NCBI GenBank assembly: GCA_012034595.1
Contig: JAAUPE010000004.1
Span: 19,766 to 83,765, forward strand
Direction of reading: 5' to 3'
DNA length: 64,000 nucleotides
Source of the DNA: Calothrix sp. CSU_2_0
GTDB lineage: Bacteria > Cyanobacteriota > Cyanobacteriia > Cyanobacteriales > Nostocaceae
The notes beneath the pieces were generated by a model. The model had not been told where the DNA came from and did no database searches. It was given only the letters and a program-made list of their open reading frames with translations. The position numbers and the translations under genes were made by a program. Below, piece after piece: positions 3,265 to 6,931 of the stretch. The first letter of the stretch is position 1. Each line of letters starts with the position of its first letter.

Positions 3265-4713
3265 TTACTTATCCTTACGCACAGGAAGCGGAGTTTCCAA
3301 CACTTCCATGAGTAATTCCAAGCGAGATGGACGGGAAAGCAAAGGTACGAGGTTGGGTAAAGAGTAGTAATCACCAGCAAATGTAAAAGTATCAACAGAC
3401 GCTTCCACTTCCTTCAACTTGCGTTCTACATAATCACACCACTGCCCAACACGAACAATAATCACATTCGGTTCCACCTTCAGATCGCGTTTGTACGCTA
3501 CATAAGCATCGTGGAAATAAGGATTGGTGTTATCACCTTCATCCGTCACAATGATGATTTGTTCGACGACTTGCTTGCGCGATCGCATGACCTCCAATGC
3601 AGCACCAATACTGGTTCCACCGTTGGGAAATATGTGCTGGAATGCTTTTTCCCAATCAGACATTTCCGTTCCTTGTGCTTTGACTGGGTAAGCAATGGTA
3701 TCGAAAGCATAAACAAACAAATCAGCTTCCGCAATCCCAGAAATTAAAGCGGCAATTTGCTTACCAACTTCGATCGCTACATTCATACTTCCCGATTTGT
3801 CCACCAATAAAGCTGTAGACTTCTTGATTCGTCCGTGCTTTTTGATTTGTTGGTTAGCAATATTTTCCAACTGTGCGACAGTTTCCGCATCGACTTTGGT
3901 GACATCCGCAGCGACATTTGCCTTCAATGCCGAAACGCGATCGCTCTTTGCCGCTTCCTTCAATTTCCCATCAATCAACGCTTTAACTTCTGGGTGTTCC
4001 ATTACACCCCGTTCTTTCAGGGATTTGAGGTTATTGATCACCTCCTGGGAAGACATAGAGTTAATCAAAGCAACCAAAACAACAGGTGTTAATTGCTTAA
4101 CAGCACCAATTGCGATCGTGTAGGGAATATTGTACTCAACAATCAAATTCGCTTGTTCTGCGGGAGTTGCAGCTTTTGCTAATTGCTTGAGGATGTACGC
4201 AAGACTACCAATGGGTGGTTCATCCTTAAATAACACCGCATCTGCACGCATACTTGGTTTAATATGCAAAGTTGCGTAAAGGTGCTTCATTGCCTTACGT
4301 CCACGTAAAGCTGCGCGATCGAAAAACTCGGCTTTAGCTTCGCGAGTTTGCAGATATTGACGAACTGCGGTACGTGCAGAACGGGGTACTTTACCGCGTT
4401 GCTGCTTCATAAAATCTATAATGCGAGCGACTTGGTAAGGTGGAAATTCCTGCAACATCACGAATCCAGCATCGCGATGTTCAGTAATAGTACTAGTGAG
4501 CAAATGTCCTAAAAATACCTCTTTGTGGTCGCGAACATCGCCATTTTGGTTGTACCACACAGCCAAATGTCCGTAAAAAAGTGGATCGAGTTCGATCATT
4601 ATTTTGTGGAACTCTGCAACCTTCGCTAATTCGCGGTGAGGAGTTGTCAATAAACTGTTAATCAGTTCCAAACGTAAATCACGTTCTGCTATATTCATTT
4701 TTATAGAGTCCAT
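3265..4713 (-). CDS. Ro60-like RNA-binding protein (TROVE-type helical repeats + VWA domain)
   Basis: The 482-aa protein has an alpha-helical N-terminal region (about residues 1-290) and a C-terminal VWA domain with the MIDAS motif DKSGSM, the later GGTSIGAAL threonine loop and VTDEGD. The helical part resembles the TROVE ring of Ro60/Rsr: a paired-basic helix followed by LHIKP near residue 150, and a later LKSLKERGV segment then KSDRVSALK. Ro proteins bind Y RNAs and misfolded RNAs and assist RNA quality control and rRNA maturation. Several Y-like RNAs lie directly upstream on the same strand, which supports this reading. An SD-like GGAGGT precedes ATG 4713. Without a profile search the TROVE assignment is good but not certain. 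Confidence 0.75.
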   Translation of the reverse strand: MDSIKMNIAERDLRLELINSLLTTPHRELAKVAEFHKIMIELDPLFYGHLAVWYNQNGDVRDHKEVFLGHLLTSTITEHRDAGFVMLQEFPPYQVARIIDFMKQQRGKVPRSARTAVRQYLQTREAKAEFFDRAALRGRKAMKHLYATLHIKPSMRADAVLFKDEPPIGSLAYILKQLAKAATPAEQANLIVEYNIPYTIAIGAVKQLTPVVLVALINSMSSQEVINNLKSLKERGVMEHPEVKALIDGKLKEAAKSDRVSALKANVAADVTKVDAETVAQLENIANQQIKKHGRIKKSTALLVDKSGSMNVAIEVGKQIAALISGIAEADLFVYAFDTIAYPVKAQGTEMSDWEKAFQHIFPNGGTSIGAALEVMRSRKQVVEQIIIVTDEGDNTNPYFHDAYVAYKRDLKVEPNVIIVRVGQWCDYVERKLKEVEASVDTFTFAGDYYSLPNLVPLLSRPSRLELLMEVLETPLPVRKDK

Positions 4714-4779
4714 TTTTGACTACCTCCAAATAGTGAAGAGATGGGGAAGTAGTTATCGCACGCTGCGGGTTTTTTTTGA

Positions 4780-4860
4780 ATCACCGCGCAAGTCGAGAAA
4801 GCCATTTATTTTACTTTTTGCAGAGTAGTATGTAAGCTTTTTCAGTTAGGGCGCGGCGAT
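4780..4860 (-). ncRNA. Y-RNA-like ncRNA 1 (short form, no tRNA module)
   Basis: The 81-nt RNA starts ATCGCCGCGC and ends GCGCGGTGAT, pairing over 10 bp (one G-U). Inside this stem come CCTAACTGAAAAAGC on the 5' side and GCTTTCTCGACTTGC on the 3' side, the same arrangement as in the other members at 5778, 5988, 6249 and 6427. The shared box CTTACATAC follows the 5' strand. The 3' ACTTG next to the stem resembles the ACUUG of the Ro-binding site in known Y RNAs. It lies 67 nt upstream of the Ro-like gene. Confidence 0.7.
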
Positions 4861-4919
4861 AACTACTATTATATCATTTTTAAATCTGGTTGTATCCAAT
4901 TTATCCGAGCTTTCTTTGA

Positions 4920-4943
4920 CACTTCACGCAAGTTAAAAAAGTT
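4920..4943 (-). ncRNA. remnant of a Y-like RNA (3' strand only)
   Basis: The minus strand reads AACTTTTTTAACTTGCGTG followed by AAGTG, matching the 3' strand of the Y-like family. No matching 5' strand with the CTTACATAC box is found nearby. It is probably a half-deleted copy; it can also fold locally as TTTCAC / GTGAAG and could act as a terminator for the 206-aa gene. Confidence 0.4.
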
Positions 4944-4966
4944 AGTGAAATATTGAAAGTTGATTA

Positions 4967-5587
4967 TTATTGATTTAATTTTTGTACAATCAACTTAATT
5001 TCTTTTTTATTACACTGACGTTTTTTGATTCCGCCTTCAGTATCCTCTAAATAAGTTACTAAGTACCAAATATCATTAATTTTGCAATAGCGCTGATTGT
5101 CAATAAATACTTCATCATCGCGCTTTTTAGAAGCAGATTTTGATACTTTTTTCGCTAAACAAAGAAGACCAGTTTCGGGATGAACATATAGTTCTTCTCT
5201 CCAGTAACCCAGATGTCTATTTCTTCGAGAACAAGGAACATTATCAATAATAACAACATCACGCTCTACCATTGCAAATAAATGAAATAGCAAATGTTGT
5301 CCTGCTAATGTCTTCGTTTCAATTTTTTGGCAAAGCTCGCTGTAGACAATATCCCAAGGTTGGTTTAATTGCGATCGCAACCAACGCCGCAATGGTGATA
5401 AATTATCTGAAAAGCCTTTAGTTCGCCATCTATTTTTGATGATATAAGGATTAAGTAACCCATCATCTATTGCATCTTGTGTTAATTTGTAGAGAGTCTT
5501 TTTATATCCCGTAACCTTCTTTTGACTAATTCGCCATCCCACACGTGGACGTTCGATTACTATCTTGCCTAAACGATGTTCGCTCAT
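4967..5587 (-). CDS. uncharacterised protein inside the Ro/Y-RNA cluster
   Basis: ATG 5587 gives a 206-aa basic, soluble protein starting MSEHRLGKIVIERPRVG; a TTG at 5599 in the same frame would add four residues. The middle contains LSPLRRWLRSQLNQPWD then IVYSELC, which looks like a conserved motif of a bacterial hypothetical family I cannot name, and the C-terminal half is rich in Lys/Arg. There is no signal peptide or membrane segment. No SD precedes 5587, but a strong AAAGGAGG lies before ATG 5726 in another frame, so translational coupling or a frameshift is possible. Its place between Y-like RNAs suggests a role in the same ribonucleoprotein or its maturation. Confidence 0.6.
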   Translation of the reverse strand: MSEHRLGKIVIERPRVGWRISQKKVTGYKKTLYKLTQDAIDDGLLNPYIIKNRWRTKGFSDNLSPLRRWLRSQLNQPWDIVYSELCQKIETKTLAGQHLLFHLFAMVERDVVIIDNVPCSRRNRHLGYWREELYVHPETGLLCLAKKVSKSASKKRDDEVFIDNQRYCKINDIWYLVTYLEDTEGGIKKRQCNKKEIKLIVQKLNQ

Positions 5588-6248: not shown

Positions 6249-6414
6249 TCCCACGTAAGTTAATAAAGCTATTTTTACAAGTCGTCTGCTCTACTATTGA
6301 GCTACATCCCCCAGATTAATTATCAATACAATAAATAACGGGGATGATGGGATTCGCACCCATAACCGAACGATTAACTATATGTATGTAAGCTTTAAAA
6401 GTGAGGACGCAGGA
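6249..6414 (-). ncRNA. Y-RNA-like ncRNA 4 with circularly permuted tRNA-Thr(UGU)-like module
   Basis: The outer stem is TCCTGCGT / ACGTGGGA, with family boxes AAAGCTTACATAC and AGCTTTATTAACTTAC. The module has its 3' half first: TCGTT, CGGTT, T-stem ATGGG / CCCAT with loop TGCGAAT, then acceptor strand CATCCCC. A linker of about 27 nt follows, then the 5' half: acceptor GGGGATG, TA, D-stem GCTC / GAGC, A, GACGA and loop CTTGTAA (anticodon UGT at 6277-6279). Re-joined, it gives a 7-bp perfect acceptor stem, a 4-bp D stem, a 5-bp anticodon stem (one G-U) and a 5-bp T stem. The Y stem is attached through the anticodon arm instead of the acceptor end. Confidence 0.8.
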
Positions 6415-6426
6415 TTGATTATTGGA

Positions 6427-6551
6427 CACTTCGCGCAAGTTAAGAAAGCTGTTGGTATATACACAGGAATTGAACCTGCACCTTTCGATTAAGAGTCGAA
6501 CGCTCAACCAATGAGCTAGTATGTAAGCTTTCTAAATTGGGGCGCGAAGTG
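6427..6551 (-). ncRNA. Y-RNA-like ncRNA 5 with tRNA-Lys(CUU)-like module
   Basis: The outer stem is CACTTCGCGC / GCGCGAAGTG, followed by CCCAATTTAGAAAGC and AGCTTTCTTAACTTGC. The tRNA-like body has D-arm GCTC ATTGGTT GAGC, anticodon stem TTCGA / TCGAA with loop CTCTTAA (anticodon CTT at 6491-6493), variable AGGT and T-arm GCAGG TTCAATT CCTGT. The acceptor-like helix TACATAC / GTATATA has one mismatch and is continuous with the Y stem, so no CCA end is available. It is the first RNA of the run after the 66-aa gene. Confidence 0.85.
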
Positions 6552-6633
6552 ATATTTTTAGTAAAGTTATGAGTTATAAATTGATTATTTCTTAATTTAT
6601 AACCATTAACCATTAACAATTAACCATAAACAA

Positions 6634-6834
6634 TTAACCATAAACAGCTTCAGGTCTAATAATTAAATCCCCGCTTGGTCTGCGGTCAATTACATAGGTT
6701 TCAAAGCGGTTTAAATTAACATCAAAATGCTGCGCTAATCTTTGTTTAATTGTACTGTCATTCATCGCAGCATTCAGGTTTACTTGTGCCTCTTGCATAT
6801 CGTATGAACGACCTTCAAAGCGAATGTGAACCAT
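6634..6834 (-). CDS. small conserved protein at the head of the Ro/Y-RNA cluster
   Basis: The 66-aa protein starts MVHIRFEGRSYD and ends DLIIRPEAVYG. It looks like a compact, complete small domain with the tail DRRPSGDLIIRP, which I believe is conserved in other bacteria but cannot name. It contains a His-Phe-Asp helix (AQHFDV) in the middle and no membrane segment. A GGGGG-type SD lies about 10 nt before the ATG, and a consensus promoter lies about 70 nt upstream. Its stop is 83 nt before the first Y-like RNA, so it probably shares a transcript with the cluster. Function unknown. Confidence 0.75.
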   Translation of the reverse strand: MVHIRFEGRSYDMQEAQVNLNAAMNDSTIKQRLAQHFDVNLNRFETYVIDRRPSGDLIIRPEAVYG

Positions 6835-6902
6835 TGCGATCGCCCCCTTTTTTATGTTCCTATGAATGTTTTTTTGGAGGTGTTTTGTTTGTCTATATGC
6901 TT

Positions 6903-6931
6903 ATACTACAATCGTATTACAAAAGTGTCAA
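6903..6931 (-). promoter_or_regulatory. sigma70-type promoter for the 66-aa gene / Y-RNA cluster
   Basis: On the minus strand a perfect -35 TTGACA is followed by exactly 17 nt and the -10 TAGTAT. The predicted start is near 6896, about 60 nt before the ATG at 6834. This is the strongest promoter-like sequence I see in the window. Confidence 0.7.

Follow-up and report, generated by a model that had tools for sequence, protein, structure and literature searches.

A Calothrix operon with a predicted Ro60-fold protein and Y-like RNAs that resemble tRNAs and 23S rRNA

The window analysed here is a 64,000-nt stretch of Calothrix sp. CSU_2_0, and all coordinates refer to it. On its minus strand lies an operon with a gene for a 482-aa protein of predicted Ro60 fold and a set of RNAs that resemble bacterial Y RNAs. 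In minus-strand order, the locus comprises a promoter-like site, a 66-aa gene, four Y-like RNAs, a 210-aa gene, a remnant arm, a short RNA, the 482-aa gene and a terminator-like stem:

6903..6931, minus strand: sigma-70-like promoter TTGACA-17-TAGTAT at the operon head (promoter scan, 10 of 12 matches)
6634..6834, minus strand: small protein of 66 aa, the operon's first gene (modelled, tentatively, as a ubiquitin-like beta-grasp)
6427..6551, minus strand: Y-like RNA enclosing a tRNA-Lys-like body in canonical order, anticodon CUU (Rfam tRNA, 59.1 bits)
6248..6415, minus strand: Y-like RNA with a circularly permuted tRNA (T, acceptor and D stems of 5, 7 and 4 pairs in permuted order)
5988..6235, minus strand: Y-like RNA with a 23S rRNA domain IV mimic (blastn to 23S, alignment, shuffles)
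6169..6201, minus strand: 33-nt 23S-like segment with an intact helix 69 (H69) hairpin, TCGT-AACTATA-ACGA, and an H70 strand (blastn and script)
5776..5904, minus strand: Y-like RNA enclosing a tRNA-Leu-like body in canonical order, anticodon UAG (Rfam tRNA, 49.2 bits)
4967..5599, minus strand: 210-aa protein, no family assigned (relatives in 38 of 102 loci)
4920..4947, minus strand: remnant, 3' arm of a Y-like unit only (by sequence; locus L001 has one at the same site)
4780..4860, minus strand: short Y-like RNA with a 24-nt insert, located in the ro-like gene's leader (position weight matrix (PWM)-plus-stem search, folding)
3265..4713, minus strand: 482-aa protein, predicted Ro60/Rsr fold, a helical part and a VWA domain with putative metal ion-dependent adhesion site (MIDAS) residues (fold prediction, alignment)
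3231..3256, minus strand: terminator-like stem 3' of the ro-like gene (sequence scan)

The initial annotation of this DNA had proposed five minus-strand RNAs and one remnant, and all six are recovered. The PWM-plus-stem search of the window returned four units on the minus strand (4780-4860, 5776-5904, 6248-6415 and 6427-6551). The fifth RNA, 5988-6235, escaped that search on account of an inner stem that is AAGTT/AACTT and not AAAGC/GCTTT, a paired change. Folding z-scores are -5.5 for 6427-6551, -4.5 for 4780-4860, -3.9 for 5776-5904 and -3.1 for 6248-6415; the stretch 5985-6237 reaches only -2.0, with 10 of 200 shuffles folding equally well. Two spacers separating neighbouring RNAs measure only 11 and 12 nt, which suggests that the Y-like RNAs derive from one processed transcript. 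These RNAs have the long terminal stem and the location beside a Ro-type gene that are typical of bacterial Y RNAs. Four of the five stems are predicted to surround a tRNA body (canonical or permuted) or a segment of 23S domain IV. The apparent identity of the inserts (two canonical tRNA bodies, one permuted body and a domain IV mimic), the hypervariable anticodons and the relatives in phages, all read from sequence, go beyond what had been proposed.

The 482-aa gene had been described as a TROVE plus VWA gene. The TROVE assignment fails by profile: Pfam TROVE (PF05731) gives no match to the protein up to E 10 (filters drop most matches above 0.1), the window's own genome has no PF05731 match, and among PDB sequences a profile search finds two TROVE chains, at no better than E 0.51. 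The predicted structure nevertheless shows a Ro60 fold over the entire 482-aa chain. VWA chains are among the fold matches, and the VWA_2 and VWA_CoxE profiles give weak matches below their cut-off. Residues D305, S307, S309, T367 and D391, which we take to be those of the MIDAS, are invariant in 46 aligned relatives. The gene is therefore predicted to encode a Ro60-fold protein, as in the human autoantigen Ro60, and would represent a Ro lineage that the TROVE profile overlooks. Given the predicted fold and the operon layout, the common stem is probably the protein's binding site, as in Ro-Y RNA complexes. PF05731 matches occur in 39 of 386 genomes of the phylum; these TROVE-family proteins are likewise Ro-type by profile, but are separate genes. 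Eukaryotic Ro60 and Y RNA differ from the present system in operon organisation and in insert types.

The relatives analysed are a sample of 102 loci, generally one for each copy of the gene; from a set of 137 genomes that bear the protein, 60 regions were fetched by our own choice. A position-weight match of both arms together with an outer stem identified 428 units in 97 of the 102 loci and none in the reversed or shuffled sequence of the same loci; two of the five loci lacking a unit lie on cut contigs or gene fragments. The median is 5 RNAs per locus among the 97 with any. All 428 units lie on the gene's strand, and all classes but one occur exclusively upstream of the gene, the exception being a class that joins the sarcin-ricin loop to the GTPase centre (SRL/GAC; 17 of 21 downstream). 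A script sorted the 428 units into 163 canonical tRNA, 8 degenerate canonical, 76 permuted tRNA, 63 short, 31 domain IV and 21 SRL/GAC units, 27 with a T arm that are otherwise partial, and 39 others. This bears out the proposal of a cyanobacterial Ro-type protein (by predicted fold) with an unusually large and diversified set of Y-like RNAs. The initial annotation had staked that proposal on a TROVE match and on expression or conservation of the RNAs: TROVE is unmatched by sequence, yet the fold match and the RNA conservation in relatives are strong.

Of the 386 phylum genomes, 16 have the strict tRNA-class pattern, and the protein is present in 15 of these. Genome G303 has a tRNA-type Y-like unit (contig C172, 206-295) and no match to the Ro-like protein, but it does have a TROVE-family match; one of three strict-pattern matches in G361 looks like chance. 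In G092, contigs C23 and C30 bear lone tRNA-type units far from the Ro gene, which suggests that Y-like units can act in trans. Phage contigs also carry relatives, found by an alignment search of viral sequences; a viral scan with a single protein as query returned nothing. The phage units were called at relaxed thresholds with no shuffled control, and the opposite strand gave none.

The two canonical RNAs of the window, 6427-6551 and 5776-5904, contain complete tRNA bodies in which CATAC of the Y arm forms part of the acceptor strand. RNA 6248-6415 belongs to the permuted class: it has a T arm, an acceptor stem closed by a 28-nt loop and a D arm, and the sequence places the entry of the Y stem at the anticodon loop. 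ARAGORN labels both canonical mimics as tRNA genes, so annotation is affected. The mimics are unlikely to be ordinary tRNAs because this arrangement leaves no free CCA end; true tRNA genes were rejected, the bodies being embedded in a Y-like stem and devoid of an acceptor end.

The anticodons of the canonical mimics are unusually diverse. Inserts outside 60-76 nt were dropped (163 to 141), followed by three with no anticodon arm, and the remaining 138 carry 35 different anticodons, including stop anticodons in 13 units and A34 in 26. The invariance of U33 is no result, since the finder required it. Rates were compared between unit pairs from different loci chosen by flanking DNA alone, with short-flank pairs dropped; random pairs differ by 51%. 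Where flanks differ by 3.3% (33 pairs, 19 loci), sites 34-36 differ by 37%, the anticodon stem by 4%, other loop sites by 13% and the rest by 8%. At a flank difference of 6.3% (98 pairs, 35 loci) the corresponding values are 49%, 10%, 14% and 11%, and at the widest limit (189 pairs) the flanks differ by 11% and the triplet by 45%. The triplet thus diverges about 4 to 11 times as much as the adjacent intergenic DNA, 4 to 9 times as much as its own stem and 4 to 5 times as much as the rest of the insert. Because the pairs share history and are not independent, this is a strong sign, not a formal selection test, that the anticodons are hypervariable and outpace both the flanks and the anticodon stem several-fold.

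Another group of inserts resembles 23S rRNA. Segment 6169-6201 is 90.9% identical to 23S positions 1903-1935 of a genome of the same genus (E 5e-7). Adding the window's unit to the 31 others gave a domain IV set of 32, and the H69-H70 segment scored above the maximum of 1920 shuffles in all 32, a result to be read knowing that a 7-nt piece of it helped define the class. The linker H67-68 exceeded the shuffle maximum in 8 of the 32 and the linker H68-69 in one, so a full circular permutation of domain IV is only partly supported. The remainder of the insert looks like domain IV with its distal helices shortened (an H71 hairpin, a capped H67 and a short H68), the linkers being weakly supported. 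H69 is opened in several relatives, its strand pairing near the 3' end of the insert, with covariation; a loose script applied to the 32 units found the opened H69 stem only in 7, an H69-like hairpin only in 9, both in 13 and neither in 3.

The SRL/GAC unit, found at 21 loci and absent from the window, joins a sarcin-ricin loop core to about 70-85 nt of H42-H44. Blastn aligns it to 23S at up to 78% over 69 nt (E 2e-11), and its consensus fold has the H42-H44 layout, with 24 of the 58 pairs of the whole structure changed on both sides. The class was defined by an 11-nt form of the SRL core; the 12-nt core AGTACGAGAGGA occurs unchanged in 20 of the 21 units aligned, and the remaining unit differs by one base. 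The H44 probe exceeded the shuffle maximum in 19 of the 21 units. With the SRL probe only 8 reached it, because this 16-nt probe overlaps the insert edge, and the apparent SRL identity is drawn from the class-defining motif and its near-invariance. Simple rRNA pseudogenes were rejected, as 23S parts near 2650 and 1056-1124 are joined in reverse order and the stems covary. A broader version of this idea would see all inserts as functionless remnants of real tRNA and rRNA genes trapped between repeats. Partial tRNA-like units and one remnant arm do exist, but the covarying stems, the strict strand and position of the units, their co-occurrence with the gene and the SRL core shared by 20 of 21 units make this very improbable.

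The SRL and H42-H44 together constitute the ribosome's GTPase site. This lends some appeal to a translation-factor sponge or hibernation device, in which copies of tRNA, H69 and the SRL/L11 centre would capture elongation factors, recycling factors or ribosomal proteins and adjust translation during stress. A bL12 gene is likewise found in 27 of the 102 operons, as an extra copy in G405, the one genome checked. However, bL12 and SRL/GAC RNAs do not co-occur, EF-Tu binding is unlikely because the tRNA copies have no free acceptor end, and anticodon hypervariability is left unexplained. We regard such a device as unlikely.

By kind, the locus is a Ro/Y-type system with unusual features and possibly a categorically new function, an assignment based on the predicted fold, the stem and the permuted tRNA insert. 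The closest known arrangement is RYPER (Rsr / YrlA / PNPase; rsr-yrlBA-rtcBA), which is alike in its Ro fold (predicted here), a long terminal stem beside the gene and a permuted tRNA insert. As in YrlA, the tRNA of RNA 6248-6415 is circularly permuted with a closed acceptor stem, and bacterial Y RNA 6CU1 is described in PMC11472068 as having a permuted tRNA domain. RNA 6248-6415 (6260-6398) scores 34.3 bits against Rfam YrlA (RF02553; E 3.8e-5), below the cut-off of 69, and searches of four other loci gave 32.1-41.7 bits for five units, spread over three of them. In a comparison of Ro-binding motifs the family keeps its own motif, and only the 3' motif ACUUG was seen in common with the Rfam YrlA consensus. 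The systems differ in that the Calothrix-type protein falls below Pfam TROVE detection and has more RNAs, a median of 5 per locus (S. Typhimurium has yrlB and yrlA, according to PMC7790460). Canonical-order tRNA inserts, 23S rRNA mimics and hypervariable anticodons further distinguish the present family. Nine annotated neighbour-family representatives include no RtcB, and no search aimed at it was made. The literature searched contains no description of rRNA-mimicking Y RNAs or of this protein family, a coverage on which priority cannot be claimed.

This likeness underlies the main rival explanation, already foreshadowed by the suggestion of one RNA "per client or partner": each insert may be a docking module that brings to Ro an enzyme with affinity for tRNA or rRNA, such as PNPase or a modification or maturation enzyme, and Ro then works on structured or damaged RNA. 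PMC8394870 states that PNPase attaches to YrlA's tRNA-like domain and that DusA and TruB modify this domain; the title of a work cited there has a Ro ortholog functioning in the maturation of 23S rRNA in D. radiodurans. The present permuted insert is itself similar to YrlA. Docking predicts neither a triplet that changes several times faster than flanks and anticodon stem nor stop anticodons, and we consider it possible but doubtful.

Further features of the locus and its relatives concern the operon's ends and neighbours. The site TTGACA-17-TAGTAT had been called one strong promoter. It is present and is the best of nine scan matches, but it is weak evidence because the scan total lies below the shuffle mean of 16.5. 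The 66-aa protein, a tentative ubiquitin-like beta-grasp by its model, has no Foldseek match at E <= 0.001, and the 210-aa protein has none in Pfam, NCBIfam, PADLOC or PHROG. Directly upstream of the operon is an MpsC-family gene (7122-7619, minus strand; Pfam PF10057, 127.6 bits), which has relatives at 8 of the 102 loci. Two short minus-strand open reading frames of the window, 2467-2892 and 2230-2448, represent a second VWA gene; where relatives have it, at 14 of 102 loci, it encodes about 270 aa. A KptA/Tpt1 RNA 2'-phosphotransferase gene lies near 8 of 102 loci; in L117, L118, L159 and L021 it is about 3-6 kb past the gene start. Large tRNA arrays adjoin the Ro/Y locus in L187 (about 4462-7545, Kovacikia plasmid pA), where the array contains one Y-like unit, and in L031 (3195-5492). 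A further insert class, GGTGCGTA...TACGCTGCAAGCCTGA...AGCAGGCA with variants, recurs near the gene in L077, L078, L140, L144, L158, L164, L170, L173, L027 and L187. Small palindromic repeats (GGTACCC...GGGAA-like) lie inside the T loop of some permuted mimics (L022:9148-9326, L028:8799-8980, L042:3485-3652, L082:8243-8401), as if a small mobile repeat favoured this loop.

The explanation we put first, at slightly below an even chance, is that the Ro-RNA particles are decoys or sensors that draw RNA-cutting attack off real tRNAs and the ribosome. It builds on features read from the sequences (the common stem, the resemblance of the inserts, their recurrence beside the gene, the fast anticodon change and the relatives on phage contigs) and on predicted Ro and RNA folds. 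The Ro-type protein would bind the common stem of the array RNAs, and ribotoxins or anticodon nucleases would act on the copied sites. A copy that is bound or cut would then tie up the nuclease, or would open the Ro ring to damaged RNA. The short RNA 4780-4860 is a possible feedback site for the ro-like gene, through which free Ro protein would repress its own mRNA; the 63 units of the short class lie upstream of the gene match at a median distance of 87 nt. Sites of the kinds copied are known targets: PMC5408214 reports cutting of helix/loop 70 by MazF-mt3 and MazF-mt6, of the sarcin-ricin loop by a VapC, and of tRNAs by VapC and MazF-mt9. Phage tRNAs have been proposed, in PMC10264068, to escape anticodon nucleases through anticodon-loop changes. 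They share with the present family tRNA-like genes, anticodon-loop variation and a proposed conflict with tRNA-cutting defence, but in the mimics a Y-like stem closes off the tRNA body, which lacks a free acceptor end. The occurrence of copied sites with fast-changing anticodons in both hosts and phages is consistent with a decoy or sensor in a translation conflict.

Several observations weigh against decoys or sensors. The 32 aligned domain IV mimics do not retain UUCCU, the motif of MazF-mt6, at the corresponding position. We know of no toxin that cuts the GTPase centre. The stop and A34 anticodons are not limited to those of real tRNAs, and such non-natural anticodons fit escape or free drift as well as bait. 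The rate comparison indicates a special rate at the triplet and by itself no constraint on the tRNA body; at the closest limit the rest of the insert also exceeds the flanks (8% against 3%, gaps counted, some pairs being perhaps non-orthologous). PADLOC anti-phage defence models assign no family to the three proteins searched. The expected link between bL12 and the SRL/GAC class was not found across the 102 loci (p 0.79); a weak association links bL12 to the domain IV class instead (p 0.03, uncorrected and with phylogeny ignored). Expression, protein binding and cleavage of the Y-like RNAs are themselves predictions.

A more specific and more doubtful form of the decoy or sensor proposal is an RNA-level immune repertoire, in which a Ro ribonucleoprotein (RNP) of cyanobacteria, with a related form in huge phages, would display copies of translation sites as baits that trap or sense RNA-cutting toxins. 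The baits would jointly comprise tRNA anticodon arms with diversifying anticodons, H69/H70, and the sarcin-ricin loop with the GTPase centre.

The purpose of Y RNAs is a long-standing open question, and here one protein comes with a readable set of RNAs. The inserts name the cellular sites that may be involved: tRNA anticodons, H69/H70, the sarcin-ricin loop and the L11 centre. Single inserts make the function of a Ro RNP directly testable. If the proposal is true, this would be the first case, within the literature searched, of small RNAs that rebuild functional centres of the ribosome on a Y-type stem.

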